The notes under the pieces: model-generated
Database searches by the model: none
What the model was told of the DNA's origin: nothing
The model's input: the letters and a program-made list of their open reading frames with translations, nothing else
Position numbers and translations under genes: made by a program
NCBI GenBank assembly: GCA_021802585.1
Contig: JAJZRQ010000016.1
Coordinates: 1 to 44,908 of the forward strand
Length of the DNA: 44,908 bases
Reading direction: 5' to 3'
Source of the DNA: Chloroflexota bacterium
GTDB taxonomy: Bacteria > Chloroflexota > Limnocylindria > Limnocylindrales > CSP1-4
Shown here: piece after piece, positions 7,792 through 44,908 of the stretch
Layout of the letters: each line of letters starts with the position of its first letter
Numbering within the stretch: position 1 is the stretch's first letter

Positions 7792-9519
7792 ATGACCTTC
7801 CGCGCCCGTCCGACGACGCGGACCGGCCGCCGCAGCGGCCACGAGTCCGACGCCCGCCGCAACCTCTACTTCAACCTCGGCTTCGGCGCGGTCGTCGCCG
7901 TCGCCGTCCTCCTCCTCGTCGGCGCCGGCGCCGCCAGCTGGTACGGCGACCACCTTGCCGCGGTCGCGATCGTCAACGGCGAGACGATCACGAAGGACGC
8001 CCTCCGGGCCCGCGTGGCGGTCGATTCCTTCCGCCTCGACATCCTCGAGTCGCGGACCCGCGAGAAGGTGAACGCCGGCCGGATGTCCGCGGCGGTGGGA
8101 ACCCAGCTCCTCAACTCCATCGCGCAGCAGCGCCAGCAGGTCGCGAGCCAGGCGTACGAGAACGTCATCGACGAGGCGCTCATCCTCCAGCTGGCGCCGA
8201 AACGGAGCGTCGCCGTGACCGCCGCCCAGATCGACGAACAGGTGACGAAGGACGCCACGACCCCCGAGAGCCGCCACACGTTCGTCATCACGGTGGCGCC
8301 GGCGGTCTCGAGCGGCGCCGCCGCCCCGACGCAGGAGCAGAAGGACGCCGCCCGCAAGAAGGCCGAGGGGCTCCTCGCCGACCTCGAGGGCGGGACGTCG
8401 TGGGAGGACGTCGTGAAGGCCTCCGGCGACGCGAGCGCGGCCGACACGAACGGCGACCTCACGTTCATCGACAAGGGGACGACCTCCCCGGACCAGGCCT
8501 TCGTCGACGCCGTGTTCGCCCTGGCGGCGCCCGGCTACACGGACGTCGTCGAAGGCGCCGACGGCGCGTTCCGGATCGGCCGGGTGACGGAGATCGTGCC
8601 CGCCGTGACCGACCCCAACTACATGAAGCGCGCCGCCGACGCGGGCGTCGACGAGGCCGCCTACCGGCGGGCCAGCGAGGCGGTCCTGGCCCGCGACGGG
8701 ATCGAGGCGAGCCTCATCGCGGAAGTCGTGGACAAGCCGTCGGAGCAGCGCCGCGTCGCGGAGATGGTCCTCGAGGACAACGGCGGCCAGACGATCTCCC
8801 CCGGCGCCGTCCTCGTCCGGCACATCCTCTACGCGCCGAAGAACGACCCGGGCGGCGCCTCGAAGCTCGCCGCCGACGATCCGGCCTGGAAGGCCGCCGA
8901 GGAGGAGGCCCAGGCCGCGTACGACGAGCTGAAGGCCGGCACGAAGCGCTTCGTCGACCTCGCCGCGGGAAGCGACGACACGGGGTCGGCATCGTCGAAC
9001 GGGTTCCTCCCGTACGTCTCGCAGGACGACCCCAGCGCGCAGCTCGACCCGGCCTTCGCCGCGGCGATCTTCGCCCCGGGGCTCCAGCCGGGCCAGCTCC
9101 TGGCCCCCGTCAAGTCGGCCTTCGGCTGGCACGTCATCCAGTTCGTCACGACGGACGACCCGGCCGTCCGCGCCCAGAAGCTCATCGTCGAGGCGTCGAA
9201 GCCCGGCGCCGACTTCGCCCGGATCGCCGCCGACAACTCGATCTCCTCGAACGCCGCGACCGGCGGCGAGGTCGGCTGGGTTGCCCGCTACCAGCTCCCG
9301 AAGGAGCAGGAGGACGCGATCTTCGGGGCCCAGGCGAACGCCCTCACGACACCGATCGAGAGCAGCGGGCTCGTGATCTACCGGATCCAGGAGGTCGCGA
9401 CCCGGATGCCCGATCCCGACCAGGCGAAGACGCTTCGCTCGAGCGCGTTCTCGAACTGGTACTCGGGGATCAAGAACGACCCGGCCCAGACGACGATCGA
9501 GCGCCTCATCTCGGGCTGA
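7792..9519 (+). CDS. membrane-anchored parvulin-type peptidylprolyl isomerase (SurA/PrsA-like)
   Basis: Extracytoplasmic foldase of 575 residues. A basic N-terminus is followed by one membrane segment (about 22-46, FNLGFGAVVAVAVLLLVGAG) and a SurA_N-like chaperone helix region starting IVNGETITKDALRAR. Three parvulin-like segments follow: about 160-270 (degenerate), about 340-460 (begins LVRHILYAPK, ends SAFGWHVIQFV) and about 465-560 (QKLIVEASKPGADFARIA to GLVIYRIQEV). Only the middle one looks like a full PPIC domain by eye. The ATG has AAGAGAG upstream. There is no lipobox, so it is held by the uncleaved helix. It precedes mazG by 11 bases and is probably cotranscribed with it. Confidence 0.87.
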   Translation: MTFRARPTTRTGRRSGHESDARRNLYFNLGFGAVVAVAVLLLVGAGAASWYGDHLAAVAIVNGETITKDALRARVAVDSFRLDILESRTREKVNAGRMSAAVGTQLLNSIAQQRQQVASQAYENVIDEALILQLAPKRSVAVTAAQIDEQVTKDATTPESRHTFVITVAPAVSSGAAAPTQEQKDAARKKAEGLLADLEGGTSWEDVVKASGDASAADTNGDLTFIDKGTTSPDQAFVDAVFALAAPGYTDVVEGADGAFRIGRVTEIVPAVTDPNYMKRAADAGVDEAAYRRASEAVLARDGIEASLIAEVVDKPSEQRRVAEMVLEDNGGQTISPGAVLVRHILYAPKNDPGGASKLAADDPAWKAAEEEAQAAYDELKAGTKRFVDLAAGSDDTGSASSNGFLPYVSQDDPSAQLDPAFAAAIFAPGLQPGQLLAPVKSAFGWHVIQFVTTDDPAVRAQKLIVEASKPGADFARIAADNSISSNAATGGEVGWVARYQLPKEQEDAIFGAQANALTTPIESSGLVIYRIQEVATRMPDPDQAKTLRSSAFSNWYSGIKNDPAQTTIERLISG

Positions 9520-9530
9520 CCGGAGGTCGC

Positions 9531-10793
9531 GTGCTCGACGCCCTGCTCGCTGAGGCCCGGCTCCGCTGGGGGCTCGACCCGGCGGAGGGCCTCGCCGTCG
9601 TCCCCGCGGAACGGCTCGTCGCCGTCCCGCTCGAGCCGTCGCGGCCGGCGCTCCTCGTGCCCCTCGCGCTCCTCCACGCCGCCGCGCCGGCGGAGCCGCC
9701 CGCCCCGCTCCCCGGTCGCCACGGCCCGGCGGGGCGCGACGCGCTCGGCGTCCTCCGCCGCCTCTACCCGCCCGACCACCCGGTGGGGCGCCTCGGGGCG
9801 GCCGAGGGGACGACCATCGCATCCCTCGCGGAGGCGGATCTCGCGGGCCCGCTCTATCTGCGGCCCGTCGCCCCCGAGCTGGCGGCCGCCTCGCCGTGGG
9901 GGATGCCCTGGATCTCGAACCGCCTGCGGGCCCCGGACGGCTGCCCGTGGGACCGCGAGCAGACCCACGAGTCGCTCCGGAACCACCTCCTCGAGGAGGC
10001 GTACGAGGTCTACGACGCCCTCGCCGCAGGCGCCACGCCGGAGCTCGCCGGGGAGCTCGGCGACCTCTGGCTGCAGGTCGTCCTCCACGCCCAGCTCGCG
10101 GCGGAGGCCGGCGTCTTCGACCTCGCCGACGTCCAGGCCGCGATCGCCGGCAAGATCGTCCGCCGCCACCCCCACGTCTTCGGCGACGCGGTGGTCCGCA
10201 CGGCGGGCGACGTGAACCGCCAGTGGGAGCGGATCAAGGAGGCCGAGCGGGCGGCCGAGGCGGCAGCGGCCGCCGGGGAGGGCGATGCGCCGGGCCCGAA
10301 GAGCGCCCTCGACGGCGTCAGCCGGTCGATGCCCGCCCTCGCGGCGAGCCAGGAGATGCAGGAGCGGGCGGCCCACCTCGGCTACGACTGGCCGTCGATC
10401 GACGGGATCCTCGGGAAGGTCGCCGAGGAGCTCGGCGAGCTCGCCGCGGCCGAGGGGTCGGCGGCCCGGGCGGAGGAGCTCGGCGACCTCCTCATGGTCG
10501 TCGTCAACCTCGCCCGCCACCACGACGTCGAGGCCGAGGCGGCTCTCCGGGCGGCGAACGAGAAGTTCCGTCGCCGCTTCGGGATCGTCGAACGCCTCGC
10601 GGCCGAGCGCGGCGTCGCCCTCCGCGACCTCTCGTTCGCCGAGCTCGACGGCCTGTGGGACGCGGCGAAGCGCGAGCTGGCGCGCCAGAATGAGGCTGCC
10701 GGGCCGCTGTCGCCCGGCGCAGGTGGCTCCGCCGGGCTCCCGTCCGGCGCGCCGGCGCCGCGGACGCGCGAGCCCGCGGACGAGGAGGGGTGA
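9531..10793 (+). CDS. mazG: nucleoside triphosphate pyrophosphohydrolase MazG with degenerate N-terminal domain
   Basis: Hydrolyses (d)NTPs to NMP and pyrophosphate, removing aberrant nucleotides. Two MazG helical units are visible: about 130-235 ([30 protein letters not shown]) and about 275-390 ([31 protein letters not shown]). These carry the ExxE and ExxD magnesium ligands. The first 115 residues resemble only the tail of the tetrapyrrole-methylase domain of YabN-type fusions ([25 protein letters not shown]) and lack a SAM-binding site. The GTG start has GGAGG upstream. The tail (390-420) is low complexity. Its stop overlaps the ATG of rph (TGATG). Confidence 0.88.
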
Positions 10794-36364: not shown

Positions 36365-37333
36365 TCAGGCCGCGGCGAAGCCGACGGCGAGGTACCCCAC
36401 GGTGCGACGCTCGTCGCCCCCCGCGTCTGCCGAGGTCGCGGCCGCGAGCGGGAACGCGACGCCGGCGCCCATCGCCCGGAGCGCGGCGAGGCCGAGGACC
36501 GCCGGCTCGATCCCGCACATCCCGCACGAGACGCCGGGCCGGCTCCACGCCGCCTCCGCCTCCGCGACCGCGAGCCCCGCCGGATCGAGGGCGAGGATCG
36601 GCGGCAGGAGGGCCGTCGTCACCGCCGTCGCGACGCTCGCGGCCGGGTAGTGGGCCATGTCCGAGCTGATCGCGAGGAGGACCGCCGCTCCCCCCGCCCG
36701 GCGCTCCGCGAGGAGACGGCCGAGCCGCTCCCCGGCGTCGATCGCCGGCGGGCCGGTCCCCGTCCCGACGGCGAGGGCGACGATCCGGGCGTCCGGCGCA
36801 AGGCGGGCGATGAACGGCAGCTGCACTTCGAGGGAGTGCTCGCCGAGGTGGCAGCGCGAATCCGCCGCGAACGGAGGCCCGAGCCGCAGGATGCGCTCGG
36901 TCAGGTCGTCGTCGACGGCGACGTCGCCGAGCGGCGTCCGCCATGGGCCGCCGACCCAGGCGCCGATCCCGTCGAGCCACGCGGCCCGGTGGTTCGTGCC
37001 GAGGAGGACGATCGTGCGCGTCTCCCCGCCCCTGGCCGGGAGCCGGGGCACGCCGGGCGCCCCCGGCACCTCGACCGCCGCGAACGCCGAGGGGAGCAGC
37101 CGCCACGCCGCCGCCGCCACGATCCCCGAGTAGACGAGCCCCGCGTGGGGCACGAGGATCCCCGCCAGCCGGGCAGGGTCGAGATCGGCCGGCGCCGGCC
37201 AGGCGTCGTCGGCCGCGTCGAGGAGCACGTCCACCATCCGCCGGAGCTCCCCGGCCGGGCCCGGGTAGAACGTGTCCGCCACGGCCGGCGGCCGCGGCGC
37301 GGGCGACGCCGGCCCGCCGCCCTCGGCGCTCAT
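36365..37333 (-). CDS. amrB: AmmeMemoRadiSam system protein B (MEMO family)
   Basis: A 322-residue MEMO-fold protein of the three-part AmmeMemoRadiSam system, whose biochemical role is not firmly established. The conserved pattern is present: VADTFYPGP start, LVPHAGLVYSGIVAA, VLLGTNHRA, HLGEHSLEVQLPFIARL, ALAVGTGTG, ISSDMAHYP and CGMCGIEPAVLGLAALR. The His and Cys residues match the metal-binding pocket of MEMO/extradiol-dioxygenase-like folds. The ATG overlaps the stop of amrS (ATGA), so the two genes are coupled. Confidence 0.92.
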   Translation of the reverse strand: MSAEGGGPASPAPRPPAVADTFYPGPAGELRRMVDVLLDAADDAWPAPADLDPARLAGILVPHAGLVYSGIVAAAAWRLLPSAFAAVEVPGAPGVPRLPARGGETRTIVLLGTNHRAAWLDGIGAWVGGPWRTPLGDVAVDDDLTERILRLGPPFAADSRCHLGEHSLEVQLPFIARLAPDARIVALAVGTGTGPPAIDAGERLGRLLAERRAGGAAVLLAISSDMAHYPAASVATAVTTALLPPILALDPAGLAVAEAEAAWSRPGVSCGMCGIEPAVLGLAALRAMGAGVAFPLAAATSADAGGDERRTVGYLAVGFAAA

Positions 37334-38427
37334 CCGCAGGGGACCCGGCCGTCGTGGTCGAGCGCCCGCCCCGCGAGCGCCCGGCCGCAGCCGGGGCACG
37401 TCGCTCCCGGCCCGAGGCGGTCGATGACCCGGTACCCGTGGCGCTCGAGGAGGACCTGCCCGCATCCGGCGCAGCGCGTGTCCTCGAGCCCGAGCTGGGG
37501 GGCGTTCCCGACGTAGACGTGGGCGAGCCCCGCCTCCCGCCCGATGTCGGCCGCGCGGCGGAGCGTCTCGGGAGGGGTCGGCGGGACGTCGAGCATCCGG
37601 TGGGCCGGGAAGAAGCGGCTGACGTGCCACGGTGTCTCGGCGCCGAGCTCCGTCGCGATCCAGCCGGCGAGGGCCCGGAGCTCGCCGGGATCGTCGTTCC
37701 GGCCGGGGATCACGAGCGTCGTCACCTCGACCCAGACCCCGGCCGCGCGGTACGCCTTGAGGGCGTCGAGGACGGGGGCGAGCCGGGCCCCGCAGAGGCG
37801 CCGGTAGAAGGCATCGTCGAACGACTTGAGGTCGACGTTCGCGGCGTCGAGGACGGGGCGGAGGAGGTCGATCGCCTCGGCGGTCGCGTAGCCGTCGGTG
37901 ACGAAGACGTTGAGGAGCCCGGCGGCCCGGGCCTCGCGGGCGGTGTCGAGCGCGTACTCGAGGAAGACCGTCGGCTCGACGTACGTGTAGGCCACCGCGC
38001 GCGCGCCCGCCGTGAGCGCCTCGTCGACGACCTTCGACGGCGGGAGATGGCGGGTCGGGAGGTCGAGCCCGAGGCGCGGCGCCTGGGCGATCTCCCAGTT
38101 CTGGCAGAACGCGCAGTGGAACGGGCAGCCCACGGTTGCGATCGAATAGGCGAGCGCCCCCGGGGCGACGTGGAAGAGAGGCTTCTTCTCGATCGGGTCG
38201 ACCCCGACGGCGACGGCCCGCCCGTACACCGTCGAGACGAGCACCCCGTCGCGGTTCTCCCGGACGCCACAGATCCCCGAGCGACCCGGCCGGACGAGGC
38301 AGCGCATCGCGCAGGCATGACAGCGGACGCTCCCGTCGCCGACGGGCTCGGCGAGGAGCGCAGGCACGACGCCCACGGCCCGGGGGGACGGGGCGGCACG
38401 GCGGCCGGCGACGGGCGACGGGGACAT
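37330..38427 (-). CDS. amrS: AmmeMemoRadiSam system radical SAM enzyme
   Basis: A 365-residue radical SAM protein. The [4Fe-4S]/SAM motif CX3CX2C is at C101, C105 and C108 in VGCPFHCAFCQNWEI. An N-terminal Cys cluster (C36, C39, C43, C53 in CHACAMRC and GICGVREN) and a C-terminal double zinc-ribbon (CAGCG and CPGCG) are also present, as usual for this family. KKPLFHVAPG and RFFPAHRMLD are family-specific. The substrate is unknown. First gene of the amrS-amrB pair; a GCCAAT box lies six bases before the ATG. It is divergent from amrA. Confidence 0.93.
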   Translation of the reverse strand: MSPSPVAGRRAAPSPRAVGVVPALLAEPVGDGSVRCHACAMRCLVRPGRSGICGVRENRDGVLVSTVYGRAVAVGVDPIEKKPLFHVAPGALAYSIATVGCPFHCAFCQNWEIAQAPRLGLDLPTRHLPPSKVVDEALTAGARAVAYTYVEPTVFLEYALDTAREARAAGLLNVFVTDGYATAEAIDLLRPVLDAANVDLKSFDDAFYRRLCGARLAPVLDALKAYRAAGVWVEVTTLVIPGRNDDPGELRALAGWIATELGAETPWHVSRFFPAHRMLDVPPTPPETLRRAADIGREAGLAHVYVGNAPQLGLEDTRCAGCGQVLLERHGYRVIDRLGPGATCPGCGRALAGRALDHDGRVPCG

Positions 38428-38561
38428 GGACGGATTGGCCTCGTCGCCGAGTGTCGCCGCCGCGGCATCCCCGGGACAGTGCCCTCCGGCCCATGTTGCC
38501 GCCCCCGTTCGGTACTGGGCGTCGCGGCGCGGTGACGCCCACGATGCGGCGGGAGCACGAG

Positions 38562-39485
38562 ATGCGCACGACCCACCAGCCGCCGCACGCCGCCGGACAC
38601 CCGCCGGGCGGCGCCCCCGAAGAGGCCCCGACCCACCTCCTCGACCTCGCGCGCGCGGCGGTCGTCGCGACGGTCACCGGCGCCCGCGCCCCGACTCCCG
38701 ACGTGGGGGCCCACCCGGAGCTCGCGGACCCGGGCGACGCGTTCGTCACGCTCACGGACGCGGGGTCCCTCCGCGGGTGCATGGGGACGCTCGAGGCCGG
38801 CATCCCGGTGGGGGTCGCGATCGTCCAGGCCGCCGGGCTCGCCGCGGGCCGGGACCCGCGCTTCTGGCCGGTCGCGGCCGGCGAGCTCGCCCGCCTGCGC
38901 CTCGAGGTGAGCGTCCTCGGGCCGCCGCGCCCGCTCGCGGATCCGTCCGGCTTCGTCGCCGGCCGCGACGGGATCGTCGTCGAGGCGCGCGGGCGCCGGG
39001 CGCTCCTCCTGCCCCAGGTCGCGACCGAGATGGGCTGGGGCGCGACGGAGATGCTCGGCGCCGTCTGCGAGAAGGCGGGCCTCCCGGCGGACGCGTGGCG
39101 CGACCCGGCGGCCCGGCTCCTCGTCTTCGGGGCGGCGCGCGTGGCGGGCCCGGTCGTCCCGGCGGGCGTCCGCCCGGGCGACGGGCCGAGGTCAGGCCTC
39201 GAGCGCGGCGACGAGGGCCCGCAGCCGGGCGAGCCGCTCGGTCCGGGGGAGGCCGGCGAGGGCGATCCCCGCGAGGTACGTCGAGATCGGGGCAGCGGTC
39301 CGCACGCTGCCGTGGGCGGCGACGCGGGCGAGGTCGAGGAGGACGGCGCGTTCCCCCGGCCCGGCCTCGGCGACGACGTCGGGCGGGAGGAACGCGGCGA
39401 GGTGGTCGAGCCACGCCTCGAGGTCGAGCGGCGGGATCGGGTCGGTCATCGAGGGTCCTCCGGGATGCGGGCGCGTCGATGGTAG
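38562..39485 (+). CDS. amrA: AmmeMemoRadiSam system protein A (AMMECR1 family), frame runs on
   Basis: AMMECR1-domain protein. Residues about 25-205 hold the domain: LLDLARAAVVATV, FVTLTDAGSLRGCMGTLEAG with the hallmark RGCMG core, RFWPVAAGELARLRLEVSVLGPP, GRDGIVVEARGRRALLLPQVATEMGW and EMLGAVCEKAGLPADAW. The ATG at 38562 is chosen over one 18 bases earlier because GGGAG is correctly placed. The frame then continues without a stop for about 100 codons of Gly/Arg/Glu-rich sequence, antisense to the whole DUF6457 gene. That tail has no recognisable fold and may be an artefact of a lost stop codon or a sequence error, so the true end is uncertain. Confidence 0.82.
   Translation: MRTTHQPPHAAGHPPGGAPEEAPTHLLDLARAAVVATVTGARAPTPDVGAHPELADPGDAFVTLTDAGSLRGCMGTLEAGIPVGVAIVQAAGLAAGRDPRFWPVAAGELARLRLEVSVLGPPRPLADPSGFVAGRDGIVVEARGRRALLLPQVATEMGWGATEMLGAVCEKAGLPADAWRDPAARLLVFGAARVAGPVVPAGVRPGDGPRSGLERGDEGPQPGEPLGPGEAGEGDPREVRRDRGSGPHAAVGGDAGEVEEDGAFPRPGLGDDVGREERGEVVEPRLEVERRDRVGHRGSSGMRARRW
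39192..39449 (-). CDS. DUF6457-domain protein
   Basis: An 85-residue protein matching my recollection of DUF6457: LDLEAWLDHLAAFL, ERAVLLDLARVAAHGSVRTAAPISTYLAGIAL (split here as LLDLARVAAHGSVR and TAAPISTYLAG). GGAGG precedes the ATG at normal distance. I recall this family occurring near or fused to molybdenum cofactor proteins in actinobacteria. That would suit the molybdoenzyme operon starting 160 bases away on the other strand, but no activity is known. The gene is entirely antisense to the run-on of amrA. Confidence 0.75.
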   Translation of the reverse strand: MTDPIPPLDLEAWLDHLAAFLPPDVVAEAGPGERAVLLDLARVAAHGSVRTAAPISTYLAGIALAGLPRTERLARLRALVAALEA

Positions 39486-39608: not shown

Positions 39609-39830
39609 ATGAGCCTCTCTCGACGCCGTCTCCTCGCCGCGGCCGCTGCCGCCCCGGCGCTCCTTCTTGCCGGGCGCAGCCTCCGCGCCGCGGGCGATGC
39701 GGTCGGCGGCGCGATCCGCGCCGTGCGCCCGCCGGCCGACGGGACGAGCGCGACCCGCTGCGCGCTCTGCGGGGCGGGCGACCACGCGATGCTCGACCCG
39801 CGCTGCCCGGCCGCGCGCCGGGTGGTCTGA
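39609..39830 (+). CDS. small Tat-exported Cys/His protein
   Basis: A 73-residue protein with a twin-arginine signal (SRRRLLAAAAAAPALLLAG, residues 4-22) and a mature part of only about 45 residues. The mature part carries C51, C54, H59 and C66 (RCALCGAGDHAMLD, then PRCP), a CX2CX4HX6C pattern that could bind a metal or a small cluster. The ATG at 39609 is chosen over one at 39597 because GGAGG lies five bases before it. The gene is the first of the operon and ends two bases before the molybdoenzyme ATG, so it is probably an accessory or electron-transfer component of that enzyme. No known family is recognised. Confidence 0.72.
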   Translation: MSLSRRRLLAAAAAAPALLLAGRSLRAAGDAVGGAIRAVRPPADGTSATRCALCGAGDHAMLDPRCPAARRVV

Positions 39831-39832
39831 CG

Positions 39833-42370
39833 ATGGACATCGACCGCCGCACGCTCCTCAAGGGCGCCGCCGGGGCGGCCGCCGCCGTCGGCGCGGGGGC
39901 CGTCCTGCCGGTCCTCGACCCGCCTCCCGCCCGTGCCGGCCGCGACTACGACGTCCCGGCGAGCCTCCCGGTCGATCGGGTCGTCCGGACGACGTGCTCC
40001 CCGAACTGCACCGGGAGCTGCGGCCAGCTCGCGTTCGTGCGCGATGGGGTCATCGTGAAGATCCAGCAGGCGGCCGACTACCCGGACCTCGCCTACCGGC
40101 CGCGCGGATGCATGAAGGGCCTCTCGTACGTCAACCACGTCTACGGCGCCGACCGGATCCGGACGCCCCTCATCCGGACCGGCGAGCGTGGCTCCGGCGA
40201 GTTCCGCGAGGCGACGTGGGACGAAGTCCTCGACCGGATTGCCGGCGACCTGACGCGGATCGGGGAGACCTGGGGCTGGGACACGATCCATGTGTTCGGG
40301 CAGGTGCCCGGGTCCGGCTACATCCAGAAGGGCGCGAACTACCGGGCGGCGGCCACCCTCGGGCTGAGCCACGGGACGAGCTTCGACTTCAACGGCGACC
40401 TCCCGATGGGGATGCCGATCACCTTCGGCGTCCAGAATGCCGAGCACGAGGCGAAGGACTGGGCCAACAGCCGCTTCCTCCTCCTGATCGGCTCGAACCC
40501 CGTGGAGACCCGGATCCCGGACGTCCACTTCCTCTTCGACGCGATCGAGCAGGGAGCGCGGCTCGTCGTCGTCGACCCGAGCTTCTCCCCGACGGCCGCG
40601 AAGGCCGACGCGCACCTCCGGATCCGGCCCGGGACCGACGCCGCGCTCGCCCTCGCGCTCTGCCGGCAGGTCATCGCCGACGGGTCCTGGGACGCGGAGT
40701 TCATGAGGACGTACACGGACGCCCCGCTCCTCGTCCGCGGCGACAGCGGGGTGCGCCTCCGCGAGGCGGACCTCGTCGCCGGGGGCGCCGCGGACCGCTT
40801 CGTCGCGTGGGACGAGGTCGCGGGGGCCCCGCTCGTCGTCGGCACCGAGCGGCTCGGCTTCCCGGCCGGGTCGCGCCCGGCCCTCGAGGGAACCCGGCGG
40901 ATCGCCCTCGCCGACGGGTCCGCCGTCGACGCCGCGCCGGGCTTCGCCTCCGTCCGCGAGGAGCTCGACCGCTGGACGCCCGAGGCCGCCGAGGCGGTGA
41001 CCGGCGTCGCGGCGGACCTCATCGTGAGGGTTGCCCGCGCGTACGCGGCGGCGAAGCCGGCGGCGATCCTCATGGGCGGCGGCTCGAACCACTGGTACCA
41101 CGGCGACCTCACGGGCCGCGCGCTCGCCCTCCTTGCCGCCCTCACCGGGAACATCGGGAAGTCGGGCGGCGGATTCTCCGTCTACGTCGGGCAGTACAAG
41201 GTCCGGGTGAACACCGCGCCGTGGTGGAACGCCGGCGAGACGAAGGCGAAGGTCGTCCCCTCGATCTACTTCGTCCGCGGCCGGACGGACACGATGCACC
41301 CCGACGTCCCGTACCCGGAGAACGGCTGGCACGGGCTCGTCTGCACGTTCGCGAACCTGTTCGTCCAGGCGATGGACGTGAACCGCCTCCACGAGACCCT
41401 CGCCGGCCTCGACCTCATCGTCGTCGTCGACCATCAGATGACCGAGACCGCGAAGTGGGCCGACGTCGTCCTCCCGGCGACGACGTGGTACGAGAAGACC
41501 GACCTCACCGCCACGCCCCTCCACCCGTTCCTCCAGCTCCAGCAGCCGGCGATCGAGCCGGTTGGCGAGTCCCGCTCGGAGCTCTGGATGTGGCGCGAGA
41601 TCGTCCGCCGGATCGACCCGGCGAAGGCTGCCGCGTTCTTCGAGATGGACGAGGTGGCCGCGATCGAGGCGATCCTCGCCGCGGGGGCCGAGCCCGGCGG
41701 GCCGACCGAGGGGATCACCCTCGAGCAGCTCCGGGGCGGCCCGGTCCGGCTGAACGTCCCCGATCCGGACGTCCCCTTCCGGCGCCAGGTCGAGGAGCTC
41801 GTGCCCTTCCCGCCGCGCTCGCTCCCGGTCCCCCTCGAGAAGACGGCGGCCTTCATCCCCACGGGCCGGATCGAGTTCTACAAGGAGGAGGCGCGATTCC
41901 GCGAGCTCGGGGAGACCGTCCCGACGTACCGGCCCCCGTTCGACGACACCGTCCATCCGCCGGCCGACTGGCCGCTCGCCCTCCTGACGCCGCACAGCAA
42001 GTGGCGGATCCACTCGACGTACGCGAACAACCCGTGGCTCGCGGAGATCCACGGCGGGAGGCCGGAGGTGTTCATCGCTCCGCCCGACGCCGCGGCCCGG
42101 GGGATCGCCACGGGCGACCCGATCCGGGTCTGGAACACCCGCGGCGAGGTCGTCGCCTGGGCCCACGTGAGCGAGTCGGAGCAGCCCGGCTCGGTGACCC
42201 TCCACGAGGGCTGGTGGCCGCGCCAGTTCCGCCGCGGGAAGGGCGTGAACGAGCTGACCTCGTCGGCCGTGAACCCGATCCACGAGGTCCATTTCGTCGG
42301 GAACATGTGGGCGCCGTCGACGGGCTGGAAGGACTGTCGCTGCCAGGTGGCCAAGGCGGAGGAGGCCTGA
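39833..42370 (+). CDS. Tat-exported molybdopterin oxidoreductase, DMSO reductase superfamily, type II-like
   Basis: Catalytic subunit, 845 residues. A Tat signal (DRRTLLKGAAGAAAAVG) is followed by the N-terminal [4Fe-4S] site C55, C59, C63, C93, with all four ligands Cys. The Mo region reads FDFNGDLPMGMPITFGVQ; D189 aligns with the Asp ligand of NarG-type enzymes. Further type II-like segments are NSRFLLLIGSNPVETRIPD, IRPGTDAALALAL and YTDAPLLVR. The C-terminal molybdopterin-binding domain ends HEVHFVGNMWAPS. It is shorter than NarG and lacks its extensions. Substrate (an oxyanion such as nitrate, selenate, chlorate, or an organic substrate) cannot be read. The gene precedes its ferredoxin and NrfD subunits by one base and an overlap respectively. 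Confidence 0.88.
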   Translation: MDIDRRTLLKGAAGAAAAVGAGAVLPVLDPPPARAGRDYDVPASLPVDRVVRTTCSPNCTGSCGQLAFVRDGVIVKIQQAADYPDLAYRPRGCMKGLSYVNHVYGADRIRTPLIRTGERGSGEFREATWDEVLDRIAGDLTRIGETWGWDTIHVFGQVPGSGYIQKGANYRAAATLGLSHGTSFDFNGDLPMGMPITFGVQNAEHEAKDWANSRFLLLIGSNPVETRIPDVHFLFDAIEQGARLVVVDPSFSPTAAKADAHLRIRPGTDAALALALCRQVIADGSWDAEFMRTYTDAPLLVRGDSGVRLREADLVAGGAADRFVAWDEVAGAPLVVGTERLGFPAGSRPALEGTRRIALADGSAVDAAPGFASVREELDRWTPEAAEAVTGVAADLIVRVARAYAAAKPAAILMGGGSNHWYHGDLTGRALALLAALTGNIGKSGGGFSVYVGQYKVRVNTAPWWNAGETKAKVVPSIYFVRGRTDTMHPDVPYPENGWHGLVCTFANLFVQAMDVNRLHETLAGLDLIVVVDHQMTETAKWADVVLPATTWYEKTDLTATPLHPFLQLQQPAIEPVGESRSELWMWREIVRRIDPAKAAAFFEMDEVAAIEAILAAGAEPGGPTEGITLEQLRGGPVRLNVPDPDVPFRRQVEELVPFPPRSLPVPLEKTAAFIPTGRIEFYKEEARFRELGETVPTYRPPFDDTVHPPADWPLALLTPHSKWRIHSTYANNPWLAEIHGGRPEVFIAPPDAAARGIATGDPIRVWNTRGEVVAWAHVSESEQPGSVTLHEGWWPRQFRRGKGVNELTSSAVNPIHEVHFVGNMWAPSTGWKDCRCQVAKAEEA

Positions 42371-42371
42371 G

Positions 42372-43082
42372 ATGGGCGACAAGGTCTCGCCGATCGCGGC
42401 CCTCTCCCCGGCCTCGCGCGCCTGGGGGGAGATCGGGGAGCGCTCGGAGCACCCCCGCTGGGGGATGGTCGTCGACCAGGAGCGCTGCATCGGCTGCTGG
42501 TCGTGCGCGGTCATCTGCAAGAGCGAGAACGACCTCCCGCTCGGGATGTGGTGGAACCGGATCCTCACCGAGGGCGATGCCCTCGACCAGCCGGCGCAGG
42601 CCCGCGGCGAGGCCCTCGAGATGCACTGGCTCCCGCTCGCGTGCCAGCACTGCGAGAACGCGCCGTGCGTGAAGGTCTGTCCCGTCCAGGCGACGTACCA
42701 CCGCGACGACGGCCTCGTCATGCAGGACAACGACCGCTGCATCGGCTGCCGCTACTGCATGATCGCCTGCCCGTACGGGGTCCGGAACTTCAACTGGGGC
42801 GCGCCGGTGCGGCCGACGCCGTACGAGACCGGGATGGTCGCCGCGCGGCCCGTCGGCACCGTGGAGAAGTGCACGCTCTGCGTCCACCGCCTCGCGGAGG
42901 ACCAGGTGCCGTCGTGCGTCTGGTCGTGCCCCACCGGTGCCCGCGTCTTCGGCGACCTCAATGACCCGGAGGGCCGCGTCGCGACGCTCATCCGTGATCG
43001 CGAGGGCTTCGCGCTCCTCGAGGAGGTCGGCACGAAGCCCGCGGTCCACTACCTGCCGCCGCGCCGGAGGAACCCGCTGTGA
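42372..43082 (+). CDS. four-cluster ferredoxin subunit of the molybdoenzyme (DmsB/PsrB/NrfC type)
   Basis: Electron-transfer subunit of 236 residues with sixteen cysteines in four groups: 39/42/45/49, 91/94/99/103, 123/126/129/133 and 167/170/182/186. All are complete, so four [4Fe-4S] clusters are predicted. NarH-type subunits of type II enzymes replace one cysteine and bind a [3Fe-4S] cluster; this one does not. CPYGVRNFNWG after the third group resembles subunits that pair with NrfD anchors. There is no signal peptide, so it is probably exported together with the Tat-tagged catalytic subunit. Its stop overlaps the NrfD start (GTGA). Confidence 0.92.
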   Translation: MGDKVSPIAALSPASRAWGEIGERSEHPRWGMVVDQERCIGCWSCAVICKSENDLPLGMWWNRILTEGDALDQPAQARGEALEMHWLPLACQHCENAPCVKVCPVQATYHRDDGLVMQDNDRCIGCRYCMIACPYGVRNFNWGAPVRPTPYETGMVAARPVGTVEKCTLCVHRLAEDQVPSCVWSCPTGARVFGDLNDPEGRVATLIRDREGFALLEEVGTKPAVHYLPPRRRNPL

Positions 43083-44344
43083 GCGCCACGACGATGCCCG
43101 CCGCGCCCGCGGCGGCGCCCGTCCCGGGCCGCCGGGCGCTTGCGCTGTGGATCGGCCTCCTTCTCATCCTCATCGCGGCCGGCGTCGCCGCGTTCGCCTA
43201 CCAGTTCGCCACGGGCCTCGTCGTCACCGGAATGCGGAACACGGTGATGTGGGGCAACTACATCCTGTTCTTCATGTTCTTCGTCGGCCTCTCGGCCGGC
43301 GGGCTCATCGTCGCCTCCGCCGGGCGACTCTTCGGGGTGAAGGCGTTCAAGCCGATCACCCGGCTGGCCGTCCTCGAGGCGACCATCGCGGTCGTGCTCG
43401 CGGCGACGTTCATCCTCCCCGACCTCGGCCGGCCGGAGCGGCTCCTCAACATCTTCCTGTTCTTCAACCCGACCTCCCCGATGATCTGGGACATCACGAT
43501 CGTCATCGTCTACATGGGGCTGTCGGCGTTCTACGTCTGGCTCTACGCCCGGGCCGACCTCGCCCGCCGCGGCTCGTGGCTCGCGCTCGGGACGGGGACG
43601 TCGGAGCGGACGCTCGCCCGCGAGGAGCGGCTGAAGTCGGCGATGGCGTGGGTCGCTCTCCCCGCGGCGATCCTCCTCCACTCGATCACGGCGTGGATCT
43701 TCGGCCTCCAGATCAGCCGCGGCTTCTGGTACAGCTCGATCATGGCCCCGATGTTCATCACCTCGGCCCTCGTGTCGGGGATGGGCCTCGTCATCCTCCT
43801 CGCCCTCGTCCTCCGGCGGCTCGGGCGGCTGCGGTTCGAGGACGACCTCGTGGCGATGCTCGGCGGGCTCCTCGGCACGTTCATCGCCGTCGAGGCGTTC
43901 CTCGTCTTCGCCGAGTACCTCACGGCGAGCTACCCGGGGGCGCCGGAGGGCGCCGCCGTGGCGCGGATGCTCGTCGGGCCGTACGCCCCGCTCTTCTGGT
44001 TCGAGGTGGGGGTCGGCCTCGGCCTGCCGTTCGTCGTCCTCGCGATCCACCGCCTCCGACGGGATCCGCGAGCGGTGGCAGCGGCGTCGGGGGTCGCGAT
44101 CCTCGGGATCTTCGTCCACCGCCTCAACCTCGTCCTAAACGGCCTCTCGTACGCGAACATCCAGCTCCCGCCGGGCCTCCCCGTGGGCGTCGACCAGGGC
44201 GCCGGCACGTCGTTCGCGACGAGCTACTGGTACGTCCCGACCGCCGTCGAGTGGCTCATCGTGGCCGGGATCCTCGCCTTCGGCGCGCTCCTCTTCACGA
44301 TCGCCGTCCGCGTCCTCCCGATGCAGGAGCCCGAGGCGCACTGA
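43079..44344 (+). CDS. NrfD/PsrC-family quinone-interacting membrane subunit
   Basis: Integral membrane anchor of 421 residues with at least eight hydrophobic helices. It has the family features NTVMWGNYILFFMFFVGLSAGGLIV, split here as WGNYILFFMFF and GLSAGG, FILPDLGRPERLLN, FNPTSPMIWDI and HSITAWIFGLQISRGFWYSS. It exchanges electrons between the quinone pool and the ferredoxin subunit. The N-terminal 20 residues are Ala/Pro-rich. The GTG start overlaps the stop of the ferredoxin gene by four bases. It closes the operon; a small GC hairpin follows. Confidence 0.92.
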   Translation: MSATTMPAAPAAAPVPGRRALALWIGLLLILIAAGVAAFAYQFATGLVVTGMRNTVMWGNYILFFMFFVGLSAGGLIVASAGRLFGVKAFKPITRLAVLEATIAVVLAATFILPDLGRPERLLNIFLFFNPTSPMIWDITIVIVYMGLSAFYVWLYARADLARRGSWLALGTGTSERTLAREERLKSAMAWVALPAAILLHSITAWIFGLQISRGFWYSSIMAPMFITSALVSGMGLVILLALVLRRLGRLRFEDDLVAMLGGLLGTFIAVEAFLVFAEYLTASYPGAPEGAAVARMLVGPYAPLFWFEVGVGLGLPFVVLAIHRLRRDPRAVAAASGVAILGIFVHRLNLVLNGLSYANIQLPPGLPVGVDQGAGTSFATSYWYVPTAVEWLIVAGILAFGALLFTIAVRVLPMQEPEAH

Positions 44345-44533: not shown

Positions 44534-44908
44534 ATGCTCCGCTCGATGCGCCTCGCCCGCCCGCTCGTCCGCCCCCTCGCGATCCTCGCCCTCCTCGCCG
44601 CGGCCGCCGCCGTCCTCGGCGCATGCGCGGCGGAGTCCGCCCCCGGCTGGACGTTCGCCCCGACGCCGACCCCCACGACCGCCGCGGCCACGCCGGCGCC
44701 CGCCTCGGGCGCGCCCTCCGCCGCCCCGTCCGGCTCGGCCTCAGGCGCGCCGTCCGCCGCCCCGAGCGGCGACACGGGAGCGGCCGTCGTCCTGCGGATC
44801 AGCGCCCAGGGGATCGCCTACGACACGAACGCCCTCGAGGCCCCGGCGAACACCCCGTTCCAGATCGTCTTCACGAACAACGACGCGGGGATCCCCCACA
44901 ACGTCGCG
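44534..44908 (+). CDS. cupredoxin-like lipoprotein (partial, cut by window end)
   Basis: The first 125 residues of an exported copper protein. The signal peptide (about 5-30, LAILALLAAAAAVLGAC) ends in a lipobox with C31. A Pro/Thr/Ala/Ser-rich linker follows (about 35-83, with two GAPSAAPSG repeats), then the start of a cupredoxin domain: VVLRISAQGIAYDTNALEAP and FTNNDAGIPHNVA, where H122 would be the first copper ligand. The remaining Cys/His/Met ligands lie beyond the window. The start could be the ATG at 44534 (AGGAG touches it) or the in-frame ATG at 44546. It may exchange electrons with the adjacent molybdoenzyme; that is inference from position. Confidence 0.82.
   Translation, partial: MLRSMRLARPLVRPLAILALLAAAAAVLGACAAESAPGWTFAPTPTPTTAAATPAPASGAPSAAPSGSASGAPSAAPSGDTGAAVVLRISAQGIAYDTNALEAPANTPFQIVFTNNDAGIPHNVA

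Follow-up and report, generated by a model that had tools for sequence, protein, structure and literature searches.

How does a molybdoenzyme with the active-site motifs of a nitrate reductase come to be wired to the membrane like a polysulfide reductase, and what might such an enzyme reduce? The question is raised by four genes, here called tat, A, B and C, in a 44,908-base stretch of DNA (the window) that makes up an entire contig of a Chloroflexota genome (2.65 Mb, 95.9% complete), the close relatives of which bear the label Chloroflexi. The genes are tightly coupled on the plus strand (39609-44344), with gaps of 2 nt between tat and A and 1 nt between A and B, and a 4-nt overlap between B and C. 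An earlier note on this DNA had described A, B and C as a type II-like catalytic subunit with unusual partners, and its coordinates, 39833-44344, cover these three genes but omit the small gene upstream. By the features tested here, A is not a member of the type II dimethyl sulfoxide (DMSO) reductases: its molybdenum site is type II-like and its wiring resembles that of PsrABC. As far as the open-access literature shows, it belongs to an uncharacterised and widespread clade that branches deeply beside the type II enzymes; no characterised member was found there. We propose that the operon encodes a membrane-anchored, menaquinol-linked and outward-facing oxyanion reductase with nitrate as the most likely substrate, a reading to which we assign a probability of about 0.45.

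The likeness to the type II enzymes lies in the catalytic subunit. The NarG-like motifs quoted in the earlier note (NGDLPMGMP, GSNPVETRIPD, PGTDAALALA and YTDAPLLVR) are all present in the 845-residue product of A. The best NCBIfam model is TIGR03479 (type II DMSO reductase alpha), with 540 bits against a cut-off of 985, and the closest solved relative by sequence is PcrA (4ydd). An AlphaFold2 model built on an alignment of 35 clade and ClrA3 sequences (pLDDT, the predicted local distance difference test, 83.8; predicted template-modelling score 0.85) found its best solved folds, in this order, in PcrA (TM-score 0.85/0.81), EbdA, NxrA and NarG. Confidence was low in the signal peptide and in some active-site loops, and around residues 181-200 it was too poor for the geometry of the pocket to be interpreted.

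The note had singled out D189 as a candidate molybdenum ligand. This residue lies within FDFNGDLPMGMP, which HMMER aligns with YDWYGDHP in PcrA and YDWYCDLP in NarG, so that D189 falls at the position of PcrA D170 and NarG D222; it is Asp in all 52 relatives compared, and the idea that it lies away from the ligand position was rejected by the alignment. An Asp is also found in this column in enterobacterial DmsA, where the molybdenum ligand is a Ser two residues further on, and the aligned column alone is therefore no proof of ligation. The stronger argument is that no Ser or Cys occurs close by in the loop: none is found at positions 184-192 in any of the 52 relatives, and the only one out to position 196 is a single Ser at 193. 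D189 is the probable ligand. N58, R91, N187, G188, L190 and H423 are likewise invariant in 52/52 clade members. Position 187 is Asn in the clade, Tyr in Nar, Pcr and ClrA3, and His in the Nxr-like proteins.

The FS0 cluster of A is bound by C55-x3-C59-x3-C63-x29-C93, and the all-Cys site that the note had seen in the window recurs at all four positions in every one of 52 clade members. The first FS0 ligand is His in NarG, haloarchaeal NarG, PcrA, EbdA and ClrA1, and Asn in ClrA3; the NxrA-like proteins have the arrangement Cys-x3-Asp, with Asp as the second ligand. For the type II enzymes, the first ligand has been stated to be an apparently fully conserved His (PMC8840923). The combination of an all-Cys FS0 with Asp is rare but not unique, given that a type II enzyme on a Halobaculum roseum plasmid (L140), encoded with an ethylbenzene-dehydrogenase-related gene, has it as well and is another exception to the His rule.

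The partners of A are of a different kind. B contains 16 Cys in four complete cluster motifs, matches the DsrO model NF045797 with 211 bits (cut-off 200) and has ArrB and PsrB as its closest solved relatives. C is an NrfD protein (PF03916, E 1.5e-55) with about ten hydrophobic segments and a match to ActC in the PDB. The four-[4Fe-4S] and NrfD partners named in the earlier note are thus both there, and the three subunits together have the architecture of the NrfD-anchored complex iron-sulfur molybdoenzymes (Psr, Dms, Arr, Ttr). Wherever a clade locus is long enough to be judged, the order is A-B-C, and its retention in about 12 relatives of the same class and at some 50 loci elsewhere indicates that the arrangement is not due to chance. 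At every complete clade locus, NrfD is present where a heme b gamma subunit would be expected. No conserved chaperone gene was seen in the operon among the clade loci compared.

Relatives of A were collected in a scan of 84,980 species genomes. Orthologs with 72-89% identity occur in about 12 genomes of the same class, and relatives at 64-89% in Chloroflexota, in actinomycetotal metagenome-assembled genomes (Thermoleophilia, Acidimicrobiia, Nitriliruptoraceae) and in one such genome labelled Myxococcales. A more divergent Chloroflexi relative (L075) has 55% identity, and relatives at 41-45% are found in Desulfosporosinus, Desulfitobacterium, Paradesulfitobacterium, other Bacillota and Eggerthellaceae. 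The next relatives, at about 37%, are the group 3 chlorate reductases. Two trees of 78 and 45 rows, into which SerA, DdhA, ArrA, TtrA and SreA were not taken, agreed with each other. All proteins with the NGDLPM motif form one clade (100/100), sister to a group of NarG, haloarchaeal NarG, PcrA, ClrA1, ClrA3 and EbdA (98/96), and the two together are supported by 100/99. A therefore stands outside the substrate-assigned clades in both trees, as expected from the suggestion in the earlier note that it represents a clade of its own. ClrA3 and the NGDLPM proteins form separate, fully supported clades, but a tree in which they are forced together is 8.9 log units worse and survives the approximately unbiased (AU) test (p 0.078), so that a position as sister to all type II enzymes is likely but not proven.

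Farther out in the tree are haloarchaeal DmsA, the enzyme at L037 and others, several of which are encoded with a DsrO-like B and NrfD. Since outgroups such as haloarchaeal DmsABC also combine a Cys-ligated FS0 with a DsrO-like B and NrfD, this plan is likely to be ancestral. In the simplest reading, the all-Cys FS0 and NrfD anchor would represent the older plan, and the NarH and heme b partners and the FS0 His would have come later.

Several enzymes outside the clade were also noticed. The NxrA-like rows group with the NarG/PcrA/ClrA/EbdA side in the larger tree, and five loci from the class of the window (L017, L018, L019, L024 and L040) carry NxrA-like genes, the one in L040 scoring 1722 bits against the anammox NxrA 7b04; the second FS0 ligand in these genes is Asp, as in 7b04. 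A genome of the same family as that of the window encodes a second NrfD-paired all-Cys enzyme, intermediate between DmsA and type II (L037, 4379-9404); close to it are a gene of the NarJ/TorD family and what look like moaA and moeA. L044, L118, L121, L122 and L126 belong to a proteobacterial group of the DMSO reductase family, and a DsrO-like B was seen in the four that were checked (L044, L118, L121 and L122). In Novosphingobium (L044), an FAD oxidoreductase follows the enzyme and TonB receptors flank it, so this member is possibly catabolic rather than respiratory.

The first gene of the operon encodes a small protein that matches no Pfam or NCBIfam family. In the window, its motif reads C51-x2-C54-x4-H59-x6-C66, and R40, P41, C51, C54, G55, H59, L62 and C66 are invariant among 22 aligned relatives. 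The motif precedes A in 27 loci, all of them in the Chloroflexota/Actinomycetota half of the clade; the other loci in this half are truncated by the end of a contig, the one exception being L075, where a divergent Tat (twin-arginine translocation) open reading frame (ORF) and a TorD gene are found. No such protein was found in the Bacillota/Eggerthellaceae half. The zinc-knuckle spacing C-x2-C-x4-H-x4-C is exact in several members from Actinomycetota, and a weak profile match to zinc knuckles was obtained (E 0.015). The AlphaFold2 model has a helical signal, lacks a compact domain and gave no match in a fold search. Of the 19 genomes that encode the mini-protein, 14 lack a NarJ/TorD chaperone, whereas nine of the ten clade genomes without it have one (Fisher p 0.0017), a contrast that is confounded by phylogeny and by the incompleteness of the metagenome-assembled genomes. 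We regard the mini-protein as a new and conserved part of the system that occurs mainly where these chaperones are missing; its most likely role is that of a metal-binding assembly factor or a small accessory subunit.

What could the complex do? The Tat signal on A and the NrfD anchor indicate that the enzyme probably faces outward and couples to quinone, an arrangement established for the PsrABC-type complexes. A would be folded with its molybdenum bis(pyranopterin guanine dinucleotide) cofactor (Mo-bisPGD) and exported by the Tat system with B carried along. On the outer side of the membrane, the NrfD subunit would oxidise menaquinol, and electrons would travel by way of B, with its four [4Fe-4S] clusters, and then the all-Cys FS0 of A to the molybdenum held by D189. 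Mo(IV) might then abstract one oxygen from a small oxyanion, in the likeliest case nitrate, which would be released as nitrite. The complexes of this architecture named in PMC8076601 include no nitrate enzyme.

Nitrate is the substrate we favour, at no better than about even odds, and three kinds of evidence point to it. First, the active-site residues N58, R91, D189 and H423, which are NarG-like, have been retained. Second, a hybrid cluster protein adjoins the operon in five Desulfosporosinus loci, and a C-terminal fragment of one lies directly upstream of tat-A-B-C in a distant lineage (L093); ScdA/RIC and an Rrf2 regulator are found upstream in L058, and hemerythrin, DUF438 or DUF2249 proteins near the operon in L031, L057, L080, L087 and L090. 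Such neighbours are typical of nitrosative stress. Third, D. metallidurans and Desulfosporosinus sp. I2 reduce nitrate without an E. coli-type NarG or NapA, their only match to NarG being 30-31% (PMC10949509 Table 1; D. metallidurans is also nitrate-positive in PMC11771766 Table 1). Both carry the operon (L089 and L080), whole-genome searches recovered no NarG, NapA or NasC above the curated cut-offs in either, and the best match to the NarG model in both is the A gene of the clade. D. nitroreducens (L086) carries the operon too, its nitrate phenotype being taken here from the species name only.

Several observations weigh against nitrate. The hybrid cluster protein is widespread in Desulfosporosinus, only three enzyme types were covered by the elimination, and the L089 and L080 genomes each encode several other enzymes of the DMSO reductase family. 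D. fructosivorans (L083) has the operon and is nitrate-negative (PMC10949509). The clade has N187 in place of a Tyr that is invariant in Nar, Pcr and ClrA3. The E. coli NarG variant H49C is reportedly inactive owing to a fall in the FS0 potential, so that an all-Cys FS0 with an Asp ligand would need compensation elsewhere. Finally, neither a hybrid cluster protein, nor a siroheme nitrite reductase, nor a confident NirK was found in the genome of the window, and nitrite would therefore have to leave the cell. A bolder proposal, which we regard as possible but doubtful, adds the clade to NarGHI, Nap and Nxr as a separate class of respiratory nitrate reductase. The enzyme would pass electrons from menaquinol to nitrate, be exported by Tat and anchored by NrfD, and preserve, along with its all-Cys FS0, the wiring out of which the canonical type II enzymes arose; the exported CCHC mini-protein would be a new subunit or stand in for the NarJ/TorD chaperone.

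Among the alternatives, the one that survives best is that the same architecture serves another oxyanion, such as chlorate or perchlorate, selenate, arsenate, iodate or similar. The proximity of ClrA3, the AU test that leaves a joint clade standing and the Asn at position 187, which is unique to the clade, all speak for this reading, which we nevertheless consider unlikely. Chlorite dismutase lies beside A in every ClrA3 locus but at no clade locus, and in ClrA3 the FS0 residue is Asn, not Cys, and the partner a cytochrome c, not NrfD. A spread over soils, lakes, mines and guts would, moreover, better suit a common acceptor than a rare oxyanion. Chlorate respiration as judged from the gene neighbourhood was rejected on the same ground; the only Cld-family (chlorite dismutase) gene of the window genome is on another contig.

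That the enzyme instead reduces a sulfur compound or an S- or N-oxide (polysulfide, tetrathionate, DMSO or trimethylamine N-oxide) would fit the PsrB/DsrO and NrfD types of B and C, which are those of PsrABC, TtrABC and DmsABC, the haloarchaeal DmsABC with the same subunits in the neighbouring outgroup, and the sulfur respiration of many Bacillota carriers. We find it improbable, given that A combines an Asp ligand with NarG-like pocket residues, lacks a Ser or Cys ligand, and finds its best fold and sequence matches in PcrA, EbdA, NxrA and NarG rather than in PsrA or DmsA. Operation as a dehydrogenase or oxidase, in which a reduced compound (nitrite or a hydrocarbon, for example) would supply electrons to the quinone pool, seems quite improbable. 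EbdA, DdhA and NxrA are oxidative relatives, many carriers in Chloroflexota and Actinomycetota may be aerobes, and a true NxrA-like protein exists in the class of the window; however, NrfD complexes with such a four-[4Fe-4S] subunit are usually quinol-linked reductases, the operon is found in strict anaerobes (Desulfosporosinus, gut Eggerthellaceae), and nitrite, being too oxidising, could reduce quinone only with an input of energy. Lastly, a chimera, in which an ordinary type II subunit recently exchanged NarH and NarI for a PsrBC-type pair, is very improbable: A does branch beside enzymes whose usual partners are NarH-like, and the earlier note was right about the unusual pairing, but A, B and C go together in all members of a deep clade and the basal outgroups have the same subunit set and an all-Cys FS0, so that borrowed partners are hard to defend.

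The features of the operon and its surroundings are collected in Table 1. The putative AmmeMemoRadiSam cluster was judged by eye from the translations. The DUF6457 gene, which is divergent from the operon, is also found upstream of the ortholog in L048. The cupredoxin-like ORF downstream was rejected as a member of the operon, as it is not conserved at other loci. In L031, a YedY-like molybdenum protein, an unassigned ORF and a DUF2249 gene (8616-10107) lie directly upstream of tat-A.

Table 1. Positions in the window of the tat-A-B-C operon, two sites within A, and neighbouring genes.
Feature	Position	Strand	Description
tat	39609..39830	+	73-residue Tat-signal mini-protein, CCHC motif at end
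A	39833..42370	+	845 aa, catalytic Mo-bisPGD subunit, Tat signal; PF04879, PF00384, PF01568
FS0 [4Fe-4S] site	39995..40111	+	C55, C59, C63, C93; all-Cys
NGDLPM loop	40391..40408	+	Predicted Mo ligand position D189 and clade-specific N187
B	42372..43082	+	Electron-transfer subunit, four [4Fe-4S], DsrO/ArrB/PsrB-like
C	43079..44344	+	NrfD-type membrane anchor, predicted quinone-site subunit; PF03916
AmmeMemoRadiSam cluster (apparent)	36365-39200		Memo-like, radical SAM and AMMECR1-like ORFs
DUF6457 gene	39192-39443	-	PF20058
Cupredoxin-like ORF	44534-44908		Lipoprotein start with cupredoxin-like end, cut by contig end

If nitrate is the substrate, some Chloroflexota, Actinomycetota, Desulfosporosinus and Eggerthellaceae reduce nitrate without being picked up by the standard markers narG and napA; if it is another acceptor, soils, lakes and animal guts harbour an unassigned respiratory enzyme. 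In both cases, the clade offers a natural all-Cys FS0 beside a probably Asp-ligated molybdenum, contrary to the published His rule for type II enzymes, and a likely glimpse of the electron-transfer wiring ancestral to Nar, Pcr and Nxr.

Comparison with known systems helps to place the operon. PcrAB (4ydd) and E. coli NarGHI (1q16) share with A the Asp ligand position in a GD(L/H)P loop and the NCTG, PRGC and WYH regions. In those enzymes, however, FS0 has a His, the beta subunit is NarH-like and holds a single [3Fe-4S] cluster, and heme b subunits or soluble cytochromes serve as partners (PMC8840923), whereas A-B-C has an all-Cys FS0, four [4Fe-4S] clusters in B, an NrfD anchor and Asn for Tyr two residues before the Asp. 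ClrA3, the nearest named neighbour outside the clade (36-39% identity), has the WYHGD and GQY motifs in common with A; unlike the clade, it is encoded with chlorite dismutase, TorD and a cytochrome c, has Asn at FS0 position 1 and lacks NrfD. The group 3 chlorate reductases were described via this association with chlorite dismutase (PMC9751292). In three loci (L103, L108 and L115), we observed chlorite dismutase with ClrA3-type and PcrA-type reductases side by side.

Two NrfD-type molybdopterin complexes of Acididesulfobacillus acetoxydans, a relative of the Bacillota carriers, are up-regulated about 13-fold under nitrate (DEACI_2560-2564 and DEACI_3268-3271; PMC10949509), which would show induction by nitrate within the clade should either prove to be a member. 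The PsrABC, ArrABC and DsrOP modules combine a 16-Cys B with an NrfD anchor as in the window, but A is not of their Cys- or Ser-ligand type and no DsrMKJ genes lie alongside it. Haloarchaeal DmsABC (L137, annotated as a DsrO/NrfD operon) has Asp in the column aligned with D189, an all-Cys FS0, a DsrO-like B and an NrfD-like C; it differs from the clade in its identity of about 30%, its position in a separate outer group, the lack of both the NGDLPM motif and the CCHC mini-protein, and the chaperone gene in its operon.

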